This document shows positions 1-13,666 of a stretch of DNA of 64,000 nucleotides, piece after piece. The notes beneath the pieces are model-generated. The model saw only the letters and a list, made by a program, of their open reading frames with translations. It did not search any database and was not told the origin of the DNA. The stretch comes from Solimonas variicoloris DSM 15731 (lineage in GTDB: Bacteria; Pseudomonadota; Gammaproteobacteria; Nevskiales; Nevskiaceae): assembly GCF_000382285.1 (NCBI RefSeq), contig NZ_KB907939.1:1-64000 (forward strand), read 5' to 3'. Position 1 is the first letter of the stretch, and each line of letters starts with the position of its first letter. The translations under genes and the position numbers were made by a program.

Positions 1-1
1 T

Positions 2-238
2 GGCAGCGTCGGCGATTCCTACGACAACGCGCTGGCCGAGACGATCAACGGGCTGTACAAGGCCGAGGTGATTCACCGGCGCTCGTGGAGGAACCTCGAA
101 GCGGTCGAACTGGCCACGCTGGATTGGGTGGACTGGTTCAACCACAAGCGACTGCTAGGGCCGATCGGGAACATCCCGCCAGCGGAAGCCGAAGAGGCTT
201 ACTATCGGCAACAGGCCGCGCTGCCGCTGGCAGCGTGA
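2..238 (+). CDS. IS3-family transposase OrfB, C-terminal part
   Basis: The last 78 residues of a DDE transposase of the IS3 family. The fragment contains the hallmark GDSYDNALAET, whose glutamate is the third residue of the DDE catalytic triad, followed by the conserved WVDWFNHKR region and the PPAEAEEAYY tail before the stop at 236-238. The N-terminal part, including the two catalytic aspartates and the programmed-frameshift partner OrfA, lies upstream of the window. The family call is firm; the exact IS name cannot be given from this fragment. Confidence 0.88.
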   Translation, partial: GSVGDSYDNALAETINGLYKAEVIHRRSWRNLEAVELATLDWVDWFNHKRLLGPIGNIPPAEAEEAYYRQQAALPLAA

Positions 239-250
239 CTCAAACCAAAC

Positions 251-277
251 AGCCTCCGGAATTTCCGGGGCGGTTCA
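251..277 (-). repeat. IS3-family right terminal inverted repeat
   Basis: The outer 27 bp of the IS read TGAACCGCCCCGGAAATTCC and onward on the minus strand, beginning with the TG dinucleotide common to IS3 ends. The repeat lies 12 bp after the transposase stop codon, the expected position of the right end. It marks the exact junction with the interrupted relaxase gene. Confidence 0.8.
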
Positions 278-278
278 G

Positions 279-1256
279 ATCGAGCTTTGCAGGGATTTAG
301 GTTCAAAGCTGGTTGAACGCTTTGGCTTTGCCTTGCAGTTCAATGTCCATCTGCCAGACAAGCCCGGTGGCCTCAACCACCATGTACACATGCTGGCTTC
401 AACCAGAAAGCTGGAAGCAGGAGGCTTCACCGACAAAACCCGCGAACTCGATGAGATGGCCAAGGCCAAGGATGAAGACGGCAAGCGCTTCAATCCTGCC
501 ATTCTGGAAGTCAGAAAGCTGGTCGCTGATGTCACTAACGAACACCTTGCTCATGCAGGTTTCAGCGTGCGTGTTGACCATCGTTCTTTGCTGGATCAGC
601 AGCAGGCAGCAGCAGATGCCGGCGATCTCAAAGCCTTGGTCCATGCCAACAGACGGCCCACCATCAAGGAAGGGCATGGAGCAGGCAGCGAACACAGGAA
701 GGCAGTGAATGTTCAGATTAGGGCCGAGAACTTCCAGCAGCAGCGGGAATTCATCGACCTGCTGAAAGCAGAAATCAATCCCATCGAGATCAAGAAGGAA
801 GCGCTGGCAATGCTGGGCCTGAGCGCCGAACCCAGCAAGGCAAGACCTTCTGGACCCATTGCCACCTCAAGCCCACATGCTCGCTTTGAGCAGTTTGGAA
901 ATCTGGTTGCACATCTGGCAGGCCAGCAGGCTCCATCAATGTCCAGCAGTTCGGGCAGTTCAATGGATGGCTCGATAGAAGCCACCATCAGCCAAATCGA
1001 TGCCCTAGAAGCTCAGCTTGCAGCGTTACCTGGTGCTTTTAACCCCAAAGTCAGCCAGCAGCGTGCCAGCCTCAAGAAACAGATTGAGAACCTGAAGTCC
1101 CAGCTTGCTCAGCAGTTGGACCAGAAAGCGAAGCAGAAGGGGGCCAGCAGCACAGGCCCCACATTCCCCAGCAGGCCAACGGCCACACCAGTAGCCACAG
1201 GTCCACCAGTGCCCGCCGTGAAGCTGCCAGCACTAAGGTCCCGAAGGCTTATTTAG
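279..1256 (+). pseudogene. MobA/MobL-type relaxase, 5' truncated by the IS
   Basis: The frame is open from the IS junction at 279. It encodes ALQFNVHLPDKPGGLNHHVH, the HUH metal-binding region of MobA/MobL relaxases, which nick the transfer origin of mobilizable plasmids. The N-terminal region with the catalytic tyrosine and first conserved motif is missing because IS sequence lies directly upstream. The rest continues about 300 residues: a helical middle, a Ser/Gly-rich linker near 210-225, a coiled-coil-like segment (IDALEAQLAAL and following) and a Pro/Thr/Ala-rich tail. A TTG at 333 could in principle start a shortened product, but it would lack catalysis. The stop overlaps the convergent gene by 24 bp. 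Confidence 0.8.
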
Positions 1257-2408
1257 GCTCATGTGTTGCCCCTTTTTGGAGGGACGCAAACGAACAAGCC
1301 CTAATGCCAGCAGTGGCAGAAGAAGAAATGGATCGATGGAGCCACCGCCACCTTGATCCGTGTCGTCATCTGCGGTTGCTTTCGATAAATCAGCAACTGC
1401 CACGACGCTGCTCAGCCCATTTTCTGAAGGATGGTCGCAAAGAGCCATGAAGCCCGGAATGCTGTCTGGGCTGCCTGTGCCATCTGCACTGTTGTTCGAA
1501 TTGCCAAGGCTGCCAGAAAAATCACCAGCACTGTTTCCGGGACAATACGTGTCTTGAGCCTGTGAACGATCGCCAAATCCATAGGGATTGTTGTAGGGCA
1601 CCCCAACATAAAAAATGTGGACCTGCCCTGACGCTCCTTGATCCAAACTCACGGCGTCTGTTAGCACGCCAGAATTTGAGATATTGCCCGAATTATTCTG
1701 CCCAGTTGCATCCGGAATATTGGCCGGACCAACAGTGTGAAGCACCACGTTTTTTGTGCTGGTATTGATGTCAGTTTCTGGGTTCCAAGTGACCGTGAAA
1801 CCCCGAGTCTGGTAGGTGCTAGTGTAGTTCAAATTCGCATACTGCCGACCTTTCCCAGCGTCCAAGGCAAGTGGAGAAGGATGCACACCATTGACGATCA
1901 AGCCTTCTGCTGGCTCTGAAATTGCAACAATGTCAGGCGTGGTGCCTGCACTTTGATCACCCGCAGCATAGACGAAACGATAAGTCTCATATTCTTTCGT
2001 GGCAGGGTCATAGTGATAAGCCGTGCTTCCATTGGGAATTACGTGCTCCCCTTCGCCTGAAATTACTTCAATGTCGCGCGGGTTCCCTGAGTTGCATTGA
2101 AATGAACGGAAGGGGCTTGATGTTGAGCCTTTCGAATTGACCGTGAAGACTTGGCACTGCCGCCCACCGGCTTCTGTCTTGATGCCTAGTACATAGATGT
2201 CGCCATTGACGACGTTTTGATCGAGACCCACCGCCTTAAAGCCTGTGAGGGCAAGGGAAAGCGTCTTTTGCTTTCCCTCGTCATCAAATGCAGTGATTTT
2301 TGACTGTCCGGCTGTATCAACCTGCAGAAAGGCGGTGTTGAAGTAAGCGAACGCGCAAGATGGAGCAAAAGAAAGAATGGCTAAAAGATTGGCGTTATAG
2401 GTCTTCAT
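1233..2408 (-). CDS. Secreted protein with GlyGly-CTERM-like tail
   Basis: A 391-residue protein I do not recognise by function. It starts with a signal peptide (residues 1-21, hydrophobic core ending SCAFA). A long region rich in Asn, Ser, Thr and Gly follows, with many beta-type stretches and few cysteines. Near the C-terminus is a DQGGGGSIDPF motif, then a hydrophobic segment LLLPLLALGLV and basic residues RLRPSKK. That layout of glycines, transmembrane stretch and basic tail is the plan of GlyGly-CTERM sorting signals, which are cut by rhombosortase in Gammaproteobacteria. No rhombosortase is visible here. The gene overlaps the convergent relaxase remnant. Its composition fits element cargo, and surface or secreted display is inferred. 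Confidence 0.6.
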   Translation of the reverse strand: MKTYNANLLAILSFAPSCAFAYFNTAFLQVDTAGQSKITAFDDEGKQKTLSLALTGFKAVGLDQNVVNGDIYVLGIKTEAGGRQCQVFTVNSKGSTSSPFRSFQCNSGNPRDIEVISGEGEHVIPNGSTAYHYDPATKEYETYRFVYAAGDQSAGTTPDIVAISEPAEGLIVNGVHPSPLALDAGKGRQYANLNYTSTYQTRGFTVTWNPETDINTSTKNVVLHTVGPANIPDATGQNNSGNISNSGVLTDAVSLDQGASGQVHIFYVGVPYNNPYGFGDRSQAQDTYCPGNSAGDFSGSLGNSNNSADGTGSPDSIPGFMALCDHPSENGLSSVVAVADLSKATADDDTDQGGGGSIDPFLLLPLLALGLVRLRPSKKGQHMSLNKPSGP

Positions 2409-2526
2409 TGTTCTTGGCGTGATAAGTAGCGACAGAGTGAACTCGACGATATGTCTATTTTGTTTGATACCCGAGTACGTCCGATACTTCTTTCAGGAGT
2501 CCGAAGGCTTGAACGGAAGCGGGTAA

Positions 2527-2562
2527 AGAAAAACCTGCCATCAATTGCTTGGTGGCAGGTTC
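2527..2562 (-). terminator. Rho-independent terminator
   Basis: A perfect 9-bp stem (AACCTGCCA paired with TGGCAGGTT at 2532-2540 and 2553-2561) has a 12-base loop. On the minus strand it is followed by TTTTTCTTT. It sits just downstream of the membrane-protein gene that ends at 2579 on the minus strand, so it ends that transcript. Confidence 0.8.
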
Positions 2563-2578
2563 TGTTGAGTACAAGAAA

Positions 2579-3313
2579 TCAGCGGAAGCCCATAATGTTG
2601 CCAACTTCTGCCATGAGGCCATATGCCTGCGCTTCATTCAGGGCGCTGCCAATGATGTGCCTATTGCCCCCTGCCTCGAAGCAAACCATGTTACCCACTG
2701 CTGCCACCTGAGCTTCACGAGCTTGGCGAATTGAATCAGTGATGGCATTTGCAACACCTGCGGCCATCATGGTCCCTGATGTGCCCACAATCGTTGTAGA
2801 GGTGGACTCTTTGCCCGTCATGACATTACGTGTCAGAACCCGAGCAATCGAAGACACAGGGTAAGTCCGGCCATCGAGCGTCAGTTCATTTTCACTGACT
2901 ACAAATTCATAGGGGCGGCCGAGCGTCTGCTTCTGGAAGCCCTTCTTTGCAGAATGGCGCCAGAGCACCGTCAGCCAGGTAGCAAAGATGGCCGGAGTAA
3001 CGATTAAACCCGCGATGCCTGTTGCCAAGCCCAAGTTGACGTCCTTGTCCCCCGTAACAATAACGGCAAGGCACATCATCCCAATAAATCCGCCGATGAA
3101 GCCTCCCACCAGAGTGATGAAGGAGGTGCCAAGGTATTTGCCTTGATCAACATTCGGGGAAACGGTGAACTTCCATTTCCCAGCCCCGGCCTGCGTTCTT
3201 TCGTAGCCCGGTATCGCTTTGGTGGAAATCCGCCTTGAGCGCATTACTTGCAGGTGGGTCCACATGAAGAAGCAGAGGCCACCTGAAATTGCCAAATAGA
3301 TAAGCAGTCTCAT
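2579..3313 (-). CDS. Predicted membrane protein, unknown function
   Basis: A 244-residue protein not recognised. It has an N-terminal membrane segment (about 3-21), then two more strongly hydrophobic segments (about 62-90 and 94-118) forming a likely three-helix membrane anchor. The cytoplasmic C-terminal half begins with a beta-rich patch resembling a bacterial PH-like fold (YEFVVSENELTLDGRTYPV), followed by a Gly/Ala-rich stretch. The ATG is at 3311-3313. The gene lies 10 bp from the upstream lipoprotein gene on the same strand, so the two are probably one operon ended by the terminator at 2527-2562. The PH-like suggestion is inference only. Confidence 0.6.
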   Translation of the reverse strand: MRLLIYLAISGGLCFFMWTHLQVMRSRRISTKAIPGYERTQAGAGKWKFTVSPNVDQGKYLGTSFITLVGGFIGGFIGMMCLAVIVTGDKDVNLGLATGIAGLIVTPAIFATWLTVLWRHSAKKGFQKQTLGRPYEFVVSENELTLDGRTYPVSSIARVLTRNVMTGKESTSTTIVGTSGTMMAAGVANAITDSIRQAREAQVAAVGNMVCFEAGGNRHIIGSALNEAQAYGLMAEVGNIMGFR

Positions 3314-3323
3314 GGGTGCCGCC

Positions 3324-3623
3324 TTACTTTCCGGTCAGGGGATTAACAGCAGGTTTCCCCTTCTCGTTGCAGATGGCGTCTGAGACGTTCTTGCCAGTGA
3401 TGCCAATGGTGCCCATCACATAGCAGTTGTATTGCTTGCCGGCCTTCGTCTTCACTGAGTAGGTCGTTTTCAGCCCTTCATCCATGCGGTTTGCGATCGT
3501 GAAATCTCCCACGTCCAGGCCCAAGGCAAAGGCCGTGTTCTGTTCCAGCCTTTGATCTGTGACAGCCATTGAAGCGCAGGCCGACAACAGGACAGCAAAA
3601 CCCCCAACCGCTACTTTTTTCAT
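3324..3623 (-). CDS. Small lipoprotein
   Basis: A 99-residue protein with a lipoprotein signal peptide, MKKVAVGGFAVLLSACASM, whose lipobox LSAC predicts lipidation of the cysteine. The start at 3623 is preferred over an upstream in-frame start because GGGAG lies six bases before it. The mature part has two further cysteines (NCYVMG and DAICNE), possibly a disulfide. No known domain is recognised. It is the first gene of a two-gene operon with the membrane protein, behind a promoter region carrying an inverted repeat. Confidence 0.6.
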   Translation of the reverse strand: MKKVAVGGFAVLLSACASMAVTDQRLEQNTAFALGLDVGDFTIANRMDEGLKTTYSVKTKAGKQYNCYVMGTIGITGKNVSDAICNEKGKPAVNPLTGK

Positions 3624-3640
3624 GCGTGGCTCCCGTAATT

Positions 3641-3655
3641 CTCCCAAAATGGGAG
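3641..3655. promoter_or_regulatory. Inverted repeat, putative operator
   Basis: CTCCCAAAATGGGAG is a perfect 6-bp inverted repeat around three bases. It lies 17 bp upstream of the lipoprotein start and between that gene and the divergent XRE regulator. A divergent regulator with a palindrome in its control region is the usual plan of phage- and element-type repressors, so this is a candidate binding site. Regulator and site are linked by position only. Confidence 0.4.
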
Positions 3656-3661
3656 TACAGA

Positions 3662-3683
3662 TAGCCTAGCGGTAGCCTAGTTG
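3662..3683. repeat. Tandem 11-bp direct repeat in divergent promoter region
   Basis: TAGCCTAGCGG and TAGCCTAGTTG stand head to tail between the lipoprotein gene and the XRE gene. A TATAGA hexamer follows at 3688-3693 and could be a -10 for the regulator. Spaced one helical turn apart, the repeats may bind a regulator, but no partner is shown. Confidence 0.35.
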
Positions 3684-3720
3684 GCTGTATAGACGGCATG
3701 TCTCCCGAGAACATGGGCGA

Positions 3721-4074
3721 ATGCCAAAAGGAGCACGAAACACAACCATCCGCCGCCATCTTGGGATGAACCTCAAGTACGGCAGGACCCTGCTGGGGCT
3801 GACCCAGGAACAGTTGGCAGAGCGGGTCAATGTAGACCGCAGCCTTGTGGGTGCCATCGAGCGGGGAACCAGCGGGGCCAGCATCGACTCACTGGTAACG
3901 CTGGGGGCGGCCATCCATGTGCCTGCCCATGTCCTCATCATGCCACCGGCAGAAGCGCATCCCCTGATACTGGCTGGCATTCAGCCACTGCTGCAGAAGG
4001 CGCAAATTGACGGCCTGATTGAAGGCAAAAACCTTCCAGCAGGAAAGAAGCGGAAACGCTACACCGGCTTATAG
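3721..4074 (+). CDS. XRE-family helix-turn-helix regulator
   Basis: A 117-residue protein with an HTH_3/Cro-CI domain over about residues 16-70 (YGRTLLGLTQEQLAERVNVD then SLVGAIERG and a third helix at SIDSLVTLGAAI). The spacing of the two helices and the conserved LTQEQLA/ERG pattern make the family clear. The C-terminal 40 residues are basic and unassigned. A second in-frame ATG at 3766 would begin just at the domain and is an alternative start. It is divergent from the lipoprotein operon and probably regulates genes of the mobile element. Confidence 0.8.
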   Translation: MPKGARNTTIRRHLGMNLKYGRTLLGLTQEQLAERVNVDRSLVGAIERGTSGASIDSLVTLGAAIHVPAHVLIMPPAEAHPLILAGIQPLLQKAQIDGLIEGKNLPAGKKRKRYTGL

Positions 4075-4740: not shown

Positions 4741-4817
4741 TGGTGGGCCCACCCGGACTTGAACCGAGAACCTACGAATTATGAGTTCGCTGCTCTAACC
4801 GATTGAGCTATAGGCCC
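4741..4817 (-). tRNA. tRNA-Ile2 (anticodon CAT), intact
   Basis: A 77-nt cloverleaf on the minus strand. The acceptor arm GGGCCTA pairs with TGGGCCC, followed by A and an encoded CCA. The D-stem is GCTC/GAGC, the anticodon arm GCGAA-CTCATAA-TTCGT, and the T arm CTCGG-TTCAAGT-CCGGG. The CAT anticodon with an Ile2-like body, rather than an initiator or elongator Met body, suggests the tRNA that TilS converts to read AUA. It lies on the mobile-element side of the disrupted chromosomal copy, suggesting it is a replacement carried by the element. Confidence 0.88.
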
Positions 4818-4958: not shown

Positions 4959-6293
4959 TCAGGGCGGTGGCGCGATGGGCAGCTCGATGCGCACGCGCAG
5001 GCCGCCGCCGTCGCGGTTTTCGGCGGCGATGCGGCCGCCGCTGGCTTCGATGACGCGCTTGGCGATCGCCAGGCCCAGTCCGTAGCCGCCGCTTTCGCGC
5101 TCGCGCGCCTCGGAGACGCGCACGAACGGCTGGAACACGGCTTCGAGGCGGTCGGCGGGAATGCCGGGGCCGCGGTCTTCCACCTCGATCGTGCAGCGCC
5201 CGCCGACCGCCTGCAGGCGGACCTCGACGGCGCTGCCGGGCGCGGTGTAGCGGATGGCGTTGCGCACGACGTTCTCGATCGCACTGTGCAGCAGGTTCTC
5301 CTGCCCGCGCACGTGGACGTCGGGCTGCAGCTGGCTGCGCACTTCGATGCCGCGTGCGCGGGCCTCGAAGCGGGCGTCCTCGCACAGGGCTTCGACCAGT
5401 CCGTCGAGTTCGAGCACTTCGCTTCCGAGCGGCGTCTCGCGGTGCTCGAGGCGGGCGATCAGCAGCAGCTGGGCGATCAGCTCCTCGAGCTTGGCGGCTT
5501 CGGTTTCGATGCGGTCGAACTGCGCGTCGGCGTGCGTGTCGCGCGCCAGCTCGGCGGCGATCTGCAGGCGCGCGAGCGGCGAGCGCAGTTCATGCGAGAT
5601 GTCGCGCAGCAGCTGCTGCTGCGCGTCGAGCAGGCGCTGCAGGCGCTCGGCCATGTGATTGAAGTCGACGGCCAGCGCGCCGATCTCGTCGTGGCGGCCG
5701 GCGACCTCGGCCGGCACGCGCGCGTCGAGGTGACCTTCGGCGACGGCGCGGCTGGCGCGCTGCAGCGCGGCGACCGGTTGCGTGATGCGGCGTGCGACGA
5801 GCCAGGCGGAAAGCGTCATGACGACGATGCCGACGGCCAGCAGCAGCAGCGTGTCGAGGCGGCGCATGTCCGGGCCGCGCGGCGGCGGGATGACGGCGAC
5901 CCAGCGCAGGCGGTGGCCGTCCTCAGTCAGCACGATGGCGGTCTTGAGCAGGGCGCCGCCGGGCAGCTGCACGAGGCTGTTGCCGGCTTCGGACGCGGCG
6001 ATGGCGTCGCGCAGACGCGGCGGCGGCGGGCCGTCGTGGCCGGTCAGCGGCGCGCCGTGCTCGTCGAGCAGCAGGCGGTAGATGCCGTCCTCGCGGCGCA
6101 GCTGGCGTTGCCAGCGCTCGACGGCGCGCGGGCCTTCCTCCGCGAGCAGCGCCGCGGCGGTGCGCGCTTCGGCGGCGGCGTCATATTCGCGGTACATCAG
6201 GCGCCAGAGCTGCGAGCCGAGCGTGAAGCTCATCGCCACGGTGACGACGATGCCGAGCGTGAACCACAGCGCCAGACGCGTGCGCAGGCGCAT
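4959..6293 (-). CDS. cpxA: CpxA-like sensor histidine kinase
   Basis: A 444-residue inner-membrane kinase of the envelope-stress type. TM1 spans about 7-26, a periplasmic sensor about 30-145, TM2 about 147-166 and a HAMP domain about 167-220. The phospho-acceptor motif DISHELRSPL has H234. An N-box (NVVRNAIRY), DRGPGIP and GGYGLGLAI form the ATP lid. All catalytic motifs are present. It lies 55 bp downstream of the cognate regulator and is the last gene of cpxP-cpxR-cpxA. Assignment to Cpx rather than another OmpR-family kinase rests on the regulator's sequence, the CpxP/Spy gene and the CpxR box upstream. Confidence 0.82.
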   Translation of the reverse strand: MRLRTRLALWFTLGIVVTVAMSFTLGSQLWRLMYREYDAAAEARTAAALLAEEGPRAVERWQRQLRREDGIYRLLLDEHGAPLTGHDGPPPPRLRDAIAASEAGNSLVQLPGGALLKTAIVLTEDGHRLRWVAVIPPPRGPDMRRLDTLLLLAVGIVVMTLSAWLVARRITQPVAALQRASRAVAEGHLDARVPAEVAGRHDEIGALAVDFNHMAERLQRLLDAQQQLLRDISHELRSPLARLQIAAELARDTHADAQFDRIETEAAKLEELIAQLLLIARLEHRETPLGSEVLELDGLVEALCEDARFEARARGIEVRSQLQPDVHVRGQENLLHSAIENVVRNAIRYTAPGSAVEVRLQAVGGRCTIEVEDRGPGIPADRLEAVFQPFVRVSEARERESGGYGLGLAIAKRVIEASGGRIAAENRDGGGLRVRIELPIAPPP

Positions 6294-6348
6294 CAGCAGG
6301 ACTCCGGACGGGTGCGCGCGGCGCGCAACGGGGCAGGCGGCCGGTGCG

Positions 6349-7050
6349 TCATTCGGTAGCGGCGTAGAGATAGCCGCGGTTGCGCACCGAGCGCACGCGC
6401 GGCGAGCCGTCGCTGTGCGGGCCGAGCTTCTGGCGCAGGCGGCTGACGTGCATGTCGATCGAGCGGTCGAAGGCGCCGAGCCGGCGGTTCAGCGCGCGCC
6501 GCGAAAGGTCTTCCTTGGCGATCACCTGGCCGGCGTCCTCGATCAGCGCGCGCAGCACGTCGAACTCGGCGCCGGTCAGCTCGACCGGACGGCCGCCGAC
6601 TTTCACCAGGCGCGCGGCCGGTACCAGTTCGAGATCGCCGCAGCGCAGCGGCGCCGGGTCGGCGGCGGCCGGGTGCGAGCGGCGCAGCACGGCGCGCAGG
6701 CGGGCGGCCAGCTCGCGCGGGTTGCAGGGCTTGGCGACGTAGTCGTCGGCGCCGAGTTCGAGGCCGACGATGCGGTCGACGTCCTCGCCGCGCGCGGTCA
6801 GCATGACGACCGGCAGGCGGTGGCTGCTGCGCAGGCGTTCGAGTACGCGGAAGCCGTCGGCCTTCGGCATCATCACGTCGAGCACCAGCACGTCGTGCGC
6901 GCCGCGCCCGGCCTGTTCGATCGCGGCCAGGCCGTCATGGACGGCGTCGACCTCGAAGCCCTGACTGCGCAGGTATTCGGACAGCAACTCGCAAAAGCCG
7001 ACGTCGTCGTCGGCGAGCAGCACGCGCGGTTTGCCGGATTCCAGGCTCAT
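6349..7050 (-). CDS. cpxR: CpxR-like response regulator
   Basis: An OmpR-family regulator of 233 residues. The receiver domain (about 7-118) has the acidic pair ADDD, phosphorylated D58 in VLVLDVMMP, and K in YVAKPCNPREL. The C-terminal winged helix ends with FDRSIDMHVSRLRQKL and RNRGYLYA, close to E. coli CpxR in pattern. The ATG at 7050 is preferred to a GTG at 7062. It sits between cpxP and cpxA on one strand and probably activates the operon through the box at 7779-7793. Confidence 0.85.
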   Translation of the reverse strand: MSLESGKPRVLLADDDVGFCELLSEYLRSQGFEVDAVHDGLAAIEQAGRGAHDVLVLDVMMPKADGFRVLERLRSSHRLPVVMLTARGEDVDRIVGLELGADDYVAKPCNPRELAARLRAVLRRSHPAAADPAPLRCGDLELVPAARLVKVGGRPVELTGAEFDVLRALIEDAGQVIAKEDLSRRALNRRLGAFDRSIDMHVSRLRQKLGPHSDGSPRVRSVRNRGYLYAATE

Positions 7051-7109
7051 GATCGCCGCCACTTTACGCGGTCGCGGCGCCCGCAGGCGCCGCGATCGGT
7101 TCGGAACCG

Positions 7110-7697
7110 TCAGTCATGCGCGCGCGGCGGGGCCTGCGGGCGCTCGGCATGGCGTTTCGCGCGCTCGGCGCGGCGCTCCTGCAGCTGCCGGGCCTGTTCC
7201 GGGGTCAGGGTCGCGACCAGCTCGGAGCTGACGCGGGCGCGCAGGCGCAGCTGGTCGCGTTCGATCTGGCCGGCCTGCTCGGCGAGCTTGTCGCTCTGCG
7301 CGACGTAGTCCTTGGCCTGCGGATCGAGCGCGGCGAGGCTGCGGTGCAGATCGCGCTCGCGCTTGAACAGGTCGCGCCGTTCGCGGTGATGCTTGACGGA
7401 AATGTCGTCGATCGCGTCCTGCTGCGCGTCACTGAGGTCCAGGCCGCGCAGCTCGCGCCCCAGCGGGCCGCCGGGACCGACGTGCATCGGGTTGCCGGCG
7501 CGGCCGCGGCCTTCGCCGTGCCGCATCGCATGGTGCAGGCCGCGCCCGCCCGGCGCCGGGGCGAGCTCGGGCGCGTCGGCTTCGGCCGCCGGCGGCGGCA
7601 GCGGTGCGGCGGCCGGCGCGGCGGCGAAAGCCGCGGTCGTGGCGGCGGCGAGTGCCAGCGCGGCGCCGAGCGAGGCCTGTTTGAAGGAAAGTTTCAT
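7110..7697 (-). CDS. cpxP: CpxP/Spy-family periplasmic protein
   Basis: A 195-residue exported protein starting MKLSFKQASLGAALALAAAT, a signal peptide with cleavage near AFA-AAP. A Pro/Ala-rich linker and a His/Gly-rich patch are followed by the helical LTxxQ domain (LSDAQQDAIDDI and LTPEQARQLQERRAE) typical of CpxP, Spy and CnrX relatives. Such proteins bind misfolded proteins or metal in the periplasm and damp CpxA. It is the first gene of the operon and the likely direct CpxR target. Longer upstream starts would precede the signal peptide and are unlikely. Confidence 0.78.
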   Translation of the reverse strand: MKLSFKQASLGAALALAAATTAAFAAAPAAAPLPPPAAEADAPELAPAPGGRGLHHAMRHGEGRGRAGNPMHVGPGGPLGRELRGLDLSDAQQDAIDDISVKHHRERRDLFKRERDLHRSLAALDPQAKDYVAQSDKLAEQAGQIERDQLRLRARVSSELVATLTPEQARQLQERRAERAKRHAERPQAPPRAHD

Positions 7698-7740
7698 TGT
7701 CGACTCCGGGGTCGGATGCGCCACAAGTGATGGCGTCGAC

Positions 7741-7793
7741 GTTATAGGCCCGGGGCGCGCAAGGATGCGCTGCGCTTTGTAAAGAATAGTAAC
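7741..7793 (-). promoter_or_regulatory. cpxP promoter region with CpxR box
   Basis: GTAAAGAATAGTAAC at 7779-7793 matches the CpxR consensus GTAAA-N5-GTAAA at nine of ten defined bases. A -10-like TATAAC on the minus strand (7741-7746) places the box about 40-50 bp upstream of the start point, an activator position. The box lies between cpxP and the divergent EAL-protein gene, so it could affect either. Confidence 0.65.
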
Positions 7794-7876
7794 CATCGGC
7801 CTCGGCTTGTCGTTATCCTCCCCGTAGAATGAAGATGGATGTCCATAGTGGGTAAATGGGGGAATAGCTGTCGGCG

Positions 7877-9937
7877 ATGAGGGTCCGGACCAAACTCCTG
7901 GCCGTAATGATCCTGGTGAACCTGGCCATCGTGCTGGCCGGGCTGGTGATCGTGCCGTCCCTCGATGCCGACCGCGACATCGAGTCGGACGTGCTCGGCC
8001 GTGCCAACCGCGTGGCGATGACGGTGGTGCTGCAGCGCGCGCTGGCCGATGTCCGCCGCGAGAGCGCCGCGCTGCAGGCCGACCTCGCGGCCGGCGCCGA
8101 TCCGGCGCTGGCGCTGGCGCGGCTGCAGTCGGCCCGCGCCATGGTCCGCAACCAGCTTGCCTTCCTGCCGTCCCGCAACGAGGCCGGCGTCACCGCGCTG
8201 CGCCAGTACATCGAGGACGGCGACGCCCAGCTCGAGGCCCTGCTGCAGCCGCCGCTCGATGCCGCGCGCGCCGAGCAGGCGGTGCGCCTCGGCGCGGCGC
8301 TCGACGATCGCGCCGGCCGGCAGCTGTCGACGTTGATGGAGCGCGACAACGCCGAGGGGCTGCGAGATACGGCGACCGAATTCACGCGGCTGCACCGCCG
8401 GCTCGCCATCGCGCTCGGCGCGGTGCTCGGTGCGCTGCTGCTGTCGGTGGCGCTGTCGGTGTTCGCGTACCGGCGCGTGCTGCGGCCGCTCGGCTCGGTC
8501 ACCGGCAGCCTCAACGCGGTGCTGACCGGCCGCCAGCCGAACAGCAACATGATCGAGACCGCCGACGAATTCGGCGACATCGTGCGCGCGATGCGGCGCA
8601 TCCAGGCGCAGGCCGAGCACATCCGCCGCATCGCCTATCTCGATCCGGGCAGCGGCCTGCCGAATCGCAACAGCCTCGACGCCGAGCTGCGCGAGGTGCG
8701 TCGCCTGCGGCCGATCGATGGCACGCACGGCCTGCTGCTGATCGGCGTCGACACTTACGTGGCGATCCGCAGCGGCTTCGGCACGCGGCTGGCCGAGGCG
8801 GCGATGCGCACGGCCGGCGAACGCCTGCGCAATCTGGACGTGCTGCCGACGCAGACCTTCCGCGTCGACGCCGAGACGATCGCCCTGCTGATCGACCGCG
8901 GCAGCACCGAGGCGGTGACCCGCGTCGATCTCAAGCGCATCGCCGCCGAGGCGCTGCTGCGCCTCGCGCAGCCGGTCGAGGTCGACGAGCAGCGCTTCCT
9001 GCTGACCGCCAACGCCGGCGGCGCGGTGTATCCGGACGACGCGCGCGATCCGGAGGAATACGTCAACGTCTGCCTCGAGGCGCTGCGCCTGGCGCGCAGC
9101 GAGGGCGCCGGCCACCTGCGCTTCGGCGAGCGCGGCCACACGCATCGTCTGCGCCGCCATCTGGCGCTGACCGAGCAGATCCGCAGCGGCCTGCGCCAGG
9201 GCCAGTTCGTGCCGTTCTTCCAGCCGATTGTCGACGTCGCGCGCCGCAAGGTCGTCGGCGCCGAGACGCTGACGCGCTGGCGCCAGCCGGACGGCCGCGT
9301 CACGCTGCCGAGCGAGTTCATCTTCGTCGCCGAGGGCTCGGACCTGATCGCCGACATGACGCGCGCCGTGCTGGCGCGCGCCTGTACCACCTTCCGCAAC
9401 TGGAACGATCGCGGCTACGAGCTGCGCGTGTCGTTCAATCTGTCCGCCAAGCTGCTGTCGGCGAACGTGCTCGACATCGTGCGCGAGGCGCTCAAGGAGA
9501 GCAGCATCAATCCGGCCCATCTGGTCGCCGAGGTCACCGAGACGGCGCTGGTCGGCAACGTCGACGACGTCAGCCTCGTGCTCGACGACCTGCGCAATCT
9601 CGGCGTGATGCTGTCGCTCGACGACTTCGGCACCGGCTATTCGTCGCTAACGCATCTGTATCGCTTCGATGTCGGCGGACTCAAGATCGATCCGGTGCTG
9701 ACGCGTGCCGCGGCGCAGAACCGCCGCGTGCAGGAAATCATCCGCAGCCTCGTGCAGCTGACCAGCGCGCTCGACATCACGCTGATTTCCGAAGGCGTCG
9801 AGACCGAGGACGACATGCGCCTGATGCGGAAGCTCGGCGTGCGTCTGATGCAGGGCTTCTTCTTCAGCCGTGCGATGCCGGAGGAGCAGTTCCTCGACTG
9901 GCTGCGCAATTACGAGGCTGGCATTCTCGCCGCCTGA
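7877..9937 (+). CDS. HAMP-GGDEF(degenerate)-EAL membrane protein
   Basis: A 686-residue signalling protein. TM1 is about 7-28, a periplasmic helical sensor about 30-175, TM2 about 176-200, then a HAMP-like linker. The GGDEF-type domain (about 255-420) has lost its signature: the motif position reads RVDAETIALL, so it should not make c-di-GMP. The C-terminal EAL domain is well kept: GAETLTRW (EAL read as ETL, glutamate kept), FNLSAKLL, EVTETALV, LDDFGTGYSS, KIDPVL and SEGVETEDD. It is therefore probably a c-di-GMP phosphodiesterase or receptor. Only 40 bp separate it from the RiPP precursor gene, so co-transcription is likely. Confidence 0.85.
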   Translation: MRVRTKLLAVMILVNLAIVLAGLVIVPSLDADRDIESDVLGRANRVAMTVVLQRALADVRRESAALQADLAAGADPALALARLQSARAMVRNQLAFLPSRNEAGVTALRQYIEDGDAQLEALLQPPLDAARAEQAVRLGAALDDRAGRQLSTLMERDNAEGLRDTATEFTRLHRRLAIALGAVLGALLLSVALSVFAYRRVLRPLGSVTGSLNAVLTGRQPNSNMIETADEFGDIVRAMRRIQAQAEHIRRIAYLDPGSGLPNRNSLDAELREVRRLRPIDGTHGLLLIGVDTYVAIRSGFGTRLAEAAMRTAGERLRNLDVLPTQTFRVDAETIALLIDRGSTEAVTRVDLKRIAAEALLRLAQPVEVDEQRFLLTANAGGAVYPDDARDPEEYVNVCLEALRLARSEGAGHLRFGERGHTHRLRRHLALTEQIRSGLRQGQFVPFFQPIVDVARRKVVGAETLTRWRQPDGRVTLPSEFIFVAEGSDLIADMTRAVLARACTTFRNWNDRGYELRVSFNLSAKLLSANVLDIVREALKESSINPAHLVAEVTETALVGNVDDVSLVLDDLRNLGVMLSLDDFGTGYSSLTHLYRFDVGGLKIDPVLTRAAAQNRRVQEIIRSLVQLTSALDITLISEGVETEDDMRLMRKLGVRLMQGFFFSRAMPEEQFLDWLRNYEAGILAA

Positions 9938-9977
9938 TCCCACGACGCGGACCCGTCCGCCCATGCCGGAGCCATCG

Positions 9978-10295
9978 ATGAAAACCCCTGCCTGCAAGTC
10001 GCTCGCGCTGGCGCTCGGCGCCGCCTTCGCCGCCGGCGCCGCCAACGGTTTCGCCGCCACTGACCTCGGCCGCGGCTACGAGCTGGCCGCCAACACCGAG
10101 CCGGCGCCGAAGACGCCGGCGGCCCCGGTTGCCGCGCCGGCGTCGCAGCCGGCCGATGCCGGCAAAGCCGCCGACAAGACGGCCGACAAGGCGGCGGAAA
10201 AGGCTGCCGACAAGGCGAACGGCAAGGCCGACAAGGCCGCCGAGCACGCCTGCGGCGAGGGCATGTGCGGCAGCGCGCCGCCGCCGGCGCGTTGA
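9978..10295 (+). CDS. HvfA/BufA-like RiPP precursor peptide
   Basis: A 105-residue secreted precursor. It starts with a signal peptide (MKTPACKSLALALGAAFAAG, cleavage near NGFA-ATD), then an Ala/Pro-rich and Ala/Lys/Asp-rich spacer (repeats of the type DKAADKTADKAAEKA). The C-terminal EHACGEGMCGSAPPPAR contains two tandem E-x-x-C-G motifs, EHACG and EGMCG. HvfA of Haemophilus has repeated EGKCG motifs whose cysteines become oxazolone/thioamide copper ligands through a DUF692 enzyme, and the next gene here is DUF692. The start at 9978 is chosen because the signal peptide begins there. The product is probably a periplasmic copper-binding peptide; the chemistry is inferred from the family. Confidence 0.8.
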   Translation: MKTPACKSLALALGAAFAAGAANGFAATDLGRGYELAANTEPAPKTPAAPVAAPASQPADAGKAADKTADKAAEKAADKANGKADKAAEHACGEGMCGSAPPPAR

Positions 10296-11104
10296 ACGAC
10301 CGCGGGCGCGTCGGCCTCGGCCTGCGCCGCGGTCTGCTCGACGCGCTGGAAGGTGAGGACGCGCCGCTCGACTTTCTCGAACTCGCGCCCGAAAACTGGC
10401 TCGAGCTCGGCGGCCGCGACGCGCGCCGTCTGCGCGCGCTGGCGGCCCGCTTTGCGCTGAAGGCGCACGGGCTGTCGCTGTCGCTCGGCGGCTTCGCGCC
10501 GCTCGATCTCGACTTCGTCGGCCAAGTGGCGCGCTTCCTCGATGCGTTCGGCATCGACGACTACAGCGAGCACCTGAGCTGGTGCGCCGACGACGGCCAG
10601 CTCTACGAGCTGCTGCCGATGCCGTTCAGCGCCGAGGCGGTCGAGCACGTCGCCGCGCGCGTGCGCCGCGTGCAGGCGCTGACCGGCCGCCGCCTGGCGC
10701 TGGAGAACATCAGCTATTACGCGAGCCTCGGCGGCGAGCTCGACGAGCCGCAGTTCATCGCCGCGGTGCTCGACGCGGCCGACTGCGAGCTGCTGCTCGA
10801 CGTCAACAACGTCTACGTCAACGGCCGCAATCACGGCTACGACCCGCGCGCCTTCATCGACGCGCTGCCGGCGGCGCGCGTGCGCGGCTTCCACATCGCC
10901 GGTCACCGGCGCGGCGACGATGGCGTCTGCGTCGACACGCACGGCGAGGCGGTGGCGCCGGCGGTCTGGGAACTCTATGCGTATGCCTGCCGGCGTTTCG
11001 GCGCGCGGCCGACGCTGCTCGAACGCGACAGCGCGCTGCCGCCGTTCGCCGAGCTGTGCGCCGAGCTGGACACGATCCGCCGCCTGCAGGCCGCGAGCGC
11101 ATGA
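10292..11104 (+). CDS. DUF692 multinuclear-iron RiPP-modifying enzyme (HvfB/BufB-like)
   Basis: A TIM-barrel protein of about 270 residues in the family of methanobactin MbnB and HvfB/BufB, which oxidise cysteines of a precursor to oxazolone/thioamide or thiooxazole groups using a multi-iron centre. Visible family signatures are APENW, KAHGLSLSLGG, DDYSEHLSW, LALENISYY, LDVNNVYVNGRNHGYDP, HIAGH and DTHGEAV, which supply the His, Asp, Glu and Asn ligands. A TTG start at 10292 overlaps the precursor stop (TTGA); a GTG at 10265 is an alternative. The stop overlaps the next start (ATGA). The tight coupling supports a dedicated precursor-enzyme pair. Confidence 0.88.
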   Translation: MNDRGRVGLGLRRGLLDALEGEDAPLDFLELAPENWLELGGRDARRLRALAARFALKAHGLSLSLGGFAPLDLDFVGQVARFLDAFGIDDYSEHLSWCADDGQLYELLPMPFSAEAVEHVAARVRRVQALTGRRLALENISYYASLGGELDEPQFIAAVLDAADCELLLDVNNVYVNGRNHGYDPRAFIDALPAARVRGFHIAGHRRGDDGVCVDTHGEAVAPAVWELYAYACRRFGARPTLLERDSALPPFAELCAELDTIRRLQAASA

Positions 11105-11853
11105 GCGAGACCGCGCTCGCCGCGCGCCAGCACGCGTTCGCCCGGGCCCTGCGCGATCCGTCGCTGCCGGCGCCGGCCGGGCTCGATCCGGCGCGCCTGG
11201 CGCTGTACCGGCGGCTGCTGCGCGATAACGTCGACCGCGCGCTGGCGCGAGTGTTTCCGGTGCTGCGGCGCACACTCGCGGCGGCGACCTGGGACGCCTG
11301 CCGCGACGACTTCCTGCTCCGCCACCACTGCCGCACGCCGCTGTTCCGGGCGCTCGGCGGCGAGTTCGTGCGCTATCTGGAGCACCGCGACGGCGGGCCG
11401 CCGCTGCCGGCCTACGCGGCGGCGCTGGCGCATTACGAGTGGCTGGAGGCCTGGCTGGCGGCGGCGCCGGACCCGGCCGAGCCCGGGCCGCTGCGCGACG
11501 GCGACCTGCTCGACGGCGTGCCGGTGCTGTCGCCGCTGGTCGTGCTGCAGGCCTACGACTGGCCGGTGCACCGCATCGGCGCGGCGCTGCAGCCGGCGGC
11601 GCCGCTCGCCGTGCCGGTGTTCCTGCTGCTCAACCGCGACGCCGCCGGCACGGTGCGTTTCCTGGAGGTCGACGCGCTCGGCGCGGCGCTGGTCGACAGC
11701 CTGCGTCGCGCGCCGCAGCGCAGCGGGCGCGCCCAGCTGAGCGCACTGGCGGCGCATCACGGCCTGGCGCCGGACGTCGCGTTCGCCGCCGGCGGCGCCC
11801 TGCTGGCCCGCCTGCGCGAGCGCGGCGCGATACTGGGCGTGCGCGCCGCCTGA
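11101..11853 (+). CDS. DUF2063 RiPP partner protein (HvfC/BufC-like)
   Basis: A 250-residue protein of the DUF2063 family, the usual partner of DUF692 enzymes and thought to present the precursor leader. The N-terminal helical domain carries the family pattern [43 protein letters not shown] and FVRYLE. The C-terminal half is a mixed domain ([19 protein letters not shown]). Its ATG overlaps the DUF692 stop by 4 bp, so translation is coupled. No DoxX-type fourth gene follows; the next gene is prfC after about 210 bp. Confidence 0.85.
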
Positions 11854-12039
11854 GGCGGCGGGGGCGCTCGCCGCGCGTTCGCCGTCCGCCGGCGCGGCCC
11901 GGCCGCAGTGCCGCGCGGCGCGGCGGCCGCGGCGGGGCGTGCAGCGCCGTTGCCAGCCGCTCCGGCGGGGTAGGGCGACCGTTCGTCGCTGCCCGCCGGA
12001 CCCCGGCCGGCGCGGCGGCGTGCGGGGCGGTGCAGCGGG

Positions 12040-12045
12040 TACAAT
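12040..12045 (+). promoter_or_regulatory. -10 element of prfC
   Basis: TACAAT is followed by a GC-rich discriminator (GCGCGC) 22 bp upstream of the prfC start. A CCGGAGG ribosome-binding sequence lies between them. No good -35 is visible. The 214 bp between the RiPP cassette and prfC holds nothing else I can identify. Confidence 0.45.
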
Positions 12046-12067
12046 GCGCGCCCACCCGGAGGCCTCC

Positions 12068-13666
<1,599 letters not shown>

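Follow-up and report, generated by a model that had tools for sequence, protein, structure and literature searches.

The cassette described here is best read as one of a known kind, the captophorins (fontiphorin, oxazolin), in a lysine-free form with two sites and perhaps a retuned enzyme. It lies in a window of 64 000 nucleotides (the whole stretch of DNA that was analysed) and very probably works, making two thiooxazoles for copper. A closely similar core is found in a sister genome (G002), the MNIO enzyme of which is 96% identical to that of the window. A search of the literature found no biochemistry on the proteins of the window cassette. The features of the locus are as follows.

7779–7793, + strand: CpxR-box-like site GTAAAGAATAGTAAC, flanked by the Cpx-like genes on one side and the EAL gene on the other, with one mismatch to GTAAA-N5-GTAAA
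7877–9937, + strand: upstream gene for a GGDEF/EAL protein, stop codon 40 bp before the precursor
9978–10295, + strand: precursor gene (A), 105 residues, with signal peptide, TDLxxGY element, Ala/Lys/Asp/Pro-rich linker, core EHACGEGMCG and tail SAPPPAR
9978–10055, + strand: predicted Sec signal peptide, precursor residues 1–26 with the cleavage site placed by eye; the leader is common to the family precursors
10059–10079, + strand: TDLGRGY element following the signal peptide, read from the sequence
10242–10271, + strand: core of two abutting ExxCG units, EHACG EGMCG, precursor residues 89–98 (EHACG EGLCG in the sister)
10292–11104, + strand: MNIO (DUF692) enzyme (B), 270 residues from TTG 10292; PF05114, 317.2 bits
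10325–10330, + strand: Arg12-Arg13 of the MNIO, equivalent by alignment to FonB Arg15-Arg16
11027–11032, + strand: Asp246-Ser247 of the MNIO, equivalent to FonB Asp249 and Phe250, with Phe replaced by Ser
11101–11853, + strand: PME1/HvfC-type partner (C), 250 residues, with DUF2063 and NGO1945 C-terminal domain
12068–13666, + strand: prfC (release factor 3), downstream edge of the locus

Re-reading of the frames from the sequence bore out the coordinates, gene order, overlaps and two-unit motif given in the initial annotation. The precursor has its start codon, ATG, at 9978, preceded by GGAG, and reads from MKTPACKSLALALGAAFAAGAANGFA-ATDLGRGY through an Ala-rich linker to EHACGEGMCG; the core is thus as first described, but it does not end the protein, since SAPPPAR comes after it. 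With the predicted cleavage, the mature exported part would comprise 79 residues from Ala27. The core contains two cysteines and the leader a third. The TDLGRGY element is a possible partner-recognition site; a crude LxxG[YF] pattern is present in 115 of 139 surveyed precursors. The precursor and MNIO genes overlap at TTGA (10292) and the MNIO and PME1 genes at ATGA (11101). The former overlap holds for a start at TTG 10292, which has no Shine–Dalgarno-like sequence, whereas the rival start GTG 10265 has GAGG just upstream and appears at least as good; the MNIO start is therefore not fixed at TTG. A scan of 9700–12200 found no σ70 promoter or terminator, and an Rfam search returned only one tRNA. 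Because the precursor begins 40 bp after the EAL stop codon, read-through is possible and the two genes may be co-transcribed.

All three proteins have relatives in the expected families. The partner passes the NCBIfam HvfC (RRE) model NF050145 (227.1 bits against a cut-off of 142), matches PF09836 and PF22106 and resembles PDB entry 3dee (E 7.5e-9). The MNIO, the only such match in the genome, scores best on the HvfB model NF003818, falling 1.4 bits short of the cut-off of 360 when read from the TTG start (358.6 bits), and fits the BufB model less well (261 bits, cut-off 310). The placement of the genes as an HvfABC/bufferin-type RiPP cassette accordingly stands. The precursor exceeds no Pfam or NCBIfam cut-off and hence lacks a DUF2282 match, and plasmid sequences searched by tblastn with it gave no match. 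When 33 family precursors, including the probable FonA but neither the window nor the sister, were made into a profile, this gave a single match at E values up to 10 among 922 window frames, namely this gene (E 7e-8). The pattern E..CGE..CG likewise occurs once in the 922 six-frame stretches of at least 30 residues, at the precursor gene.

An AlphaFold model of the MNIO (mean pLDDT 91.3, pTM 0.90, from a 22-row alignment) is closest in fold to 3bww (TM 0.82/0.88; sequence E 1.5e-63), followed by TglH and MbnB. Residues H59, H94, E138, D170, N172, N173, H201, D215, H217, E244 and Asp246 are invariant in 22 aligned family MNIOs, as are Arg12-Arg13, His94-Leu95 and Asp215-Thr-His217-Gly. The site-3 ligands of HvfB are N175, D242 and H244 (PMC13419390), to which N173, D215 and H217 of the window enzyme probably correspond, as mapped by motif.

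The cassette has the gene content expected of a captophorin: an MNIO gene, a PME1 with DUF2063 and recognition element, and a homologous Cys-bearing precursor. It has neither the DUF2282 domain nor the 6- or 12-Cys precursor of bufferins Buf1 and Buf2, nor the adjacent DoxX gene of the bufferin and HvfX systems, a feature that is not obligatory and that fon lacks as well. Descent from the Lys-Cys (EGKCG/oxazolin) subgroup is indicated by the leader profile and the MNIO Arg-Arg pair; the Lys before Cys and the Phe at the FonB 250 site that mark this subgroup are absent (EHACG, EGMCG; Ser247), and in trees the cassette sits next to Lys-free members on the margin of the Lys-Cys group.

A survey of related loci shows how unusual the core is. 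With the window MNIO as query, matches were found in 7/11 genomes of the genus, 48/58 of the family and 53/85 of the order, and in 145 of 369 genomes of a class sample at E 1e-60. The 195 distinct MNIO loci retained (the returned loci, 60 fetched from lists and the best 80 of at least 582 confirmed contig matches, with identical MNIOs removed) were screened for a precursor bearing two or more [ED]xxCG motifs within 1 kb upstream of the MNIO. This filter passed 139 loci; the 56 dropped include many loci from Pseudomonas, Cys-Lys types and truncated contigs. The 139 precursors hold 827 motifs, with Lys at position 3 in 690, Ser in 58, Arg in 18, Ala in 17, Gln in 12, Asn in 11, Gly in 11, Thr in 4, Val and His in 2 each, and Leu and Met in one each. 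The single Met is that of the window and the single Leu that of the sister; position 3 is Ala and Met in the former and Ala and Leu in the latter, and the ten-residue cores are otherwise identical. A role for Met as a selectively maintained copper ligand was rejected because the sister carries Leu there.

The motif residues thus differ from EGKCG, as was recognized from the start. The number of motifs, given at first as one reason for a possibly distinct minimal member, does not set the cassette apart: exactly two are present in 15/139 precursors, and with fon also devoid of DoxX (PMC13097082) neither character can be used to argue for uniqueness. Position-3 Lys is missing altogether from 12/139 precursors, eight of them in the window's own family (the window, L003, L010, L011, L013, L016, L028 and L029). 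These eight all have two motifs, the first EH[AS]CG (DHACGG in L028) and the second EG[G/M/L]CG; position 2 of the first motif is His in every one, and they are spread over three genus groups. Among 274 class genomes the pattern EHACGEG[L/M/V]CG occurs in one, that of the window (the sister lies outside this sample). Literature searches with EGMCG, EHACG, EGLCG or EGGCG gave nothing on the subject by title; the supplementary 5-mer tables of PMC13097082 may list such motifs.

Several further observations arose from the survey. The Nevskia record L054 has the same precursor as the family genome L015. Pseudomonas loci L034–L036, L038–L042, L044–L047 and L049 encode HvfB-like MNIOs 56–60% identical to that of the window, with no ExxCG precursor found by the filter within about 1 kb upstream (L037 has one); these may be orphan enzymes or act on another substrate. 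In L036 the frame upstream of the MNIO is one that we take to be acetamidase-like. EF-hand-like stretches, recognized by eye, lie between or after ExxCG motifs in L024, L043, L052, L055, L059 and others; Buf_EGKCG/EF-hand fusions have been reported (PMC12452194).

The second distinctive feature is Ser247. In the published FonB model, Phe250 is placed against Lys3 and Gly5 of the substrate, Arg15-Arg16 flank the Glu at motif position 1 and Asp249 is the proposed catalytic base; the F250D variant, unlike the wild type, is able to process a substrate with position-3 Phe fully (PMC13097082). The Phe250 site is Phe in 8, Ser in 3 and Asn in 1 of the 12 Lys-free cassettes, and Phe in 123, Thr in 2, Ala in 1 and Asn in 1 of the 127 Lys-bearing ones (Fisher p 0.002 for Lys loss against loss of Phe, relatedness ignored). 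Ser also occurs in L028, which has an Ala/Gly core. Supported branches provide three independent pairs differing in Lys (one agrees, two show no difference) and four differing at the Phe250 site (about one agrees, three show no difference); since fewer than six informative pairs cannot reach 0.05, this test falls short of significance. The Ser/Lys association is a lead and not a result, the independent cases being too few. As a separate matter, the family includes 14 MNIOs of the [IV]ERD type, of which 13 have Asp at this site and 0/13 readable ones have the second Arg; a CKG-repeat precursor is visible at 9/14. The sister G002 (L009) has a CKG-repeat (Cys-Lys) bufferin-type cassette too, with Asp at the Phe250 site.

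These figures bear on the strongest alternative, namely that the cassette is a working captophorin cassette in which loss of Lys and the change of Phe to Ser are drift that left specificity unchanged; it conflicts with the best reading only on retuning and we give it somewhat less than an even chance. Wild-type FonBC accepts EAACGEGACG, so that Ala at position 3 is tolerated, and F250A still yields modified product (PMC13097082); eight of the 12 Lys-free cassettes keep Phe and four of the 127 Lys-bearing ones do without it, which speaks against retuning, and the paucity of independent cases leaves the Ser/Lys link short of demonstration. Drift accounts less readily for Lys-free two-motif cores in three genus groups with His at position 2 in 8/8, and for the restriction of position-3 Met or Leu, among 139 precursors, to the window and sister, both of which have Ser at the Phe250 site.

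The locus itself is conserved. In 11/11 genus genomes one interval is bounded by the EAL/GGDEF gene and prfC, and a cassette lies within it in six: G000 and the sister G002 have the Lys-free form with two motifs, and forms with six to eight motifs and Lys occur in G003, G006, G008 and G010. The other five have no MNIO between EAL and prfC, one of them (G001) having a Cys-Lys-type MNIO elsewhere. A family of lipoprotein-like genes of ∼400 residues also occurs in the interval in G003, G004, G005 and G008 (L229, L230, L236, L238); in G004 and G005, two of the five without an MNIO there, such a gene occupies the interval, and in G003 and G008 its relatives follow the cassette. The congeneric G010 (L004) is very probably the fontiphorin genome, given that at the EAL–prfC locus it encodes the published fontiphorin fragment SGEAKCGEGKCGEK and seven motifs, and that its MNIO has Arg, Arg, Asp and Phe at 15, 16, 249 and 250 counted from a Met start, the FonB numbers. 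Fontimonas is a member of the Nevskiaceae, which is probably the family of the window as well.

In an MNIO tree of 52 of the 195 rows (35 from the family, 2 from the order and 15 chosen by hand), the window and sister group (99/97) with four cassettes of genus group g4 that are likewise Lys-free, and two Lys-free cassettes of group g6 fall among Lys-bearing relatives. Forcing the window and sister together with their canonical congeners gave p-AU 0.289, and forcing together all eight Lys-free family cassettes gave p-AU 0.278, so that neither arrangement is rejected. The stem branch of the window and sister is long (1.04 changes per column), and a quick tree of 143 rows gave a warning of long branches meeting. 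Transfer of the cassette from group g4 was considered; inheritance in place seems the simpler reading in view of the p-AU value for the congeners, the long branch and the shared locus. The simplest account would be a cassette long resident at a single locus, from which it has disappeared more than once, and remodelled in the lineage of the window; the grouping with g4 in the MNIO tree counts against this account.

Window and sister were compared by the NG86 method. The MNIO gives dN 0.020 and dS 0.096 (dN/dS about 0.21) and the partner dN 0.037 and dS 0.130 (about 0.28), ratios that exceed those of EAL (dN 0.012, dS 0.170) and prfC (dN 0.0075, dS 0.130) three- to fivefold; the precursor gives dN 0.155 and dS 0.246, with an uncertain linker alignment. 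The MNIO and PME1 are under purifying selection that is weaker than that on their neighbours, as the long MNIO stem branch also indicates. This weaker constraint, the lack of any EGKCG motif and the MNIO score just below the HvfB cut-off count against the best reading. Another reading is a decaying cassette that is heading for loss and gives little or no product, to which the five genus genomes without an MNIO in the interval, the reduction to two motifs, the long branch and the raised dN/dS would all conform. We consider this unlikely: the three frames are open in both window and sister, the catalytic residues are intact, the dN/dS of both enzymes is well below 1 and the core differs from that of the sister only at Met/Leu.

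For a working captophorin cassette, the following course can be proposed. The PME1–MNIO pair would bind the precursor in the cytoplasm, and the iron enzyme would take four hydrogens off each of the two core cysteines, so that each Cys closes a 5-thiooxazole with the carbonyl of the preceding residue, here Ala and Met and not Lys. The carbonyl oxygen of that residue becomes part of the ring (PMC13097082), so that with Ala or Met in place of Lys the ring substituent would be altered and a charge beside the copper-binding sulfur removed. The exported peptide would serve as a copper buffer, with Cu(I) held by the two ring sulfurs and perhaps a neighbouring His. The change of Phe to Ser in the enzyme may make room for a residue other than Lys at position 3, or may simply drop a contact. 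The initial annotation had named an oxazolone/thioamide product, an assignment that has since been superseded, the group having been reassigned to 5-thiooxazole and the class named captophorins (PMC13097082; PMC13419390). That Ala-Cys and Met-Cys instead receive a different modification, such as oxazolone/thioamide or another MNIO reaction, is most improbable: MNIO reactions are diverse (PMC13419390) and the authors regard 5-thiooxazole as not yet established as the sole product of MNIO–PME1 clusters, but every characterized case, the FonBC product included, is reported to be 5-thiooxazole (PMC13097082) and the active-site residues of the window MNIO are conserved.

The absence of a DoxX-like gene from the cassette, remarked on at the outset, holds: the two Pfam DoxX (PF07681) matches in the whole genome are both on contigs other than the window's. 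A tblastn search with a family DoxX query (E 1e-4) found none in the window or at the eight Lys-free family cassettes and found one at 19/27 Lys-bearing family cassettes (Fisher p 0.0005, uncorrected for relatedness and with flanks mostly of 1.5 kb). Distant DoxX genes can be missed, as in a control the query found one of the genome's two known DoxX loci.

Upstream, at 4959–7796 on the − strand and divergent from the EAL gene, lie a histidine kinase, a regulator and a Spy/CpxP-like gene; the best NCBIfam models of the first two are CpxA and CpxR, and all three fall below the NCBIfam cut-offs while their Pfam domains pass. The CpxR-box consensus is GTAAA-N5-GTAAA. A similar site, GTAAAGAAT[A/G]GTAA[A/C], lies 97–111 bp before the EAL gene in 6/6 congeners with the Cpx-like genes and in 0/5 without them, the six being close kin; taken singly, only two of the six show it clearly above shuffled sequence. 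The window as a whole contains seven matches to the pattern against 3.1 expected, a number reached by 4/100 shuffles. The site is not specific to the cassette, as four of the six genomes carrying it have no cassette there, and Cpx-like regulation of the cassette may be taken as a weak lead. Copper is reported to be linked to CpxAR in E. coli (PMC11005409); a search for papers on CpxR with copper and MNIO found none. Elsewhere, the GC content of window positions 1–4000 drops to 0.54 against 0.66–0.74 in the rest, beside tRNA-Met at 4741–4817, and this stretch looks like an integrated element.

A bolder proposal can be offered tentatively, as possible but on the whole doubtful: a Lys-free subclass in the window's family would make thiooxazoles from Ala-, Ser-, Gly-, Met- or Leu-Cys, with uncharged substituents, as a minimal two-ring Cu(I) site; in the window lineage the enzyme would have been naturally retuned for this by the exchange of Phe for Ser, and the Cpx-like envelope-stress system upstream may drive the cassette.

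Four known systems come closest. The bufferins Buf1 (DUF2282) and Buf2 (Cys-Lys) share with the window cassette the class of enzyme and partner and an exported Cys-bearing precursor (PMC12452194; PMC13097082), but their precursors belong to different families. The bulbicupramide (mmr) system of Microbulbifer also pairs an MNIO with a DUF2063 partner, its precursor differing in having five to eight Cys in EGKCG units (PMC12538549). Oxazolin hvfABCX of Haemophilus has an exported precursor, the MNIO HvfB, the partner HvfC and ExxCG-type motifs; HvfA has three AEGKCGEGKCG motifs and the system includes the DoxX-like HvfX (PMC13419390), whereas the window has a single double unit that lacks Lys, a locus without DoxX and an MNIO just short of the HvfB cut-off. 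Fontiphorin fonABC of Fontimonas thermophila likewise consists of A, B and C without DoxX (PMC13097082) and agrees in its Sec leader and ExxCG core, its Arg-Arg pair and catalytic Asp and, in the very probable fon genome, its EAL–prfC locus. The two differ in that fon has seven motifs, Lys before each Cys and Phe250, against two motifs, Ala/Met and Ser in the window, and their MNIOs are 61% identical. The natural exchange of Phe for Ser in the window lineage may be likened to the engineered exchange of Phe for Asp in FonB (PMC13097082). FonBC modified a two-repeat substrate and not a one-repeat substrate (PMC13097082); the two-site window peptide matches this shortest accepted form and is therefore a simple object for copper stoichiometry. 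One genus offers, at one locus, a natural pair of a seven-site Lys/Phe enzyme and a two-site non-Lys/Ser enzyme, with which the specificity rule is directly testable.
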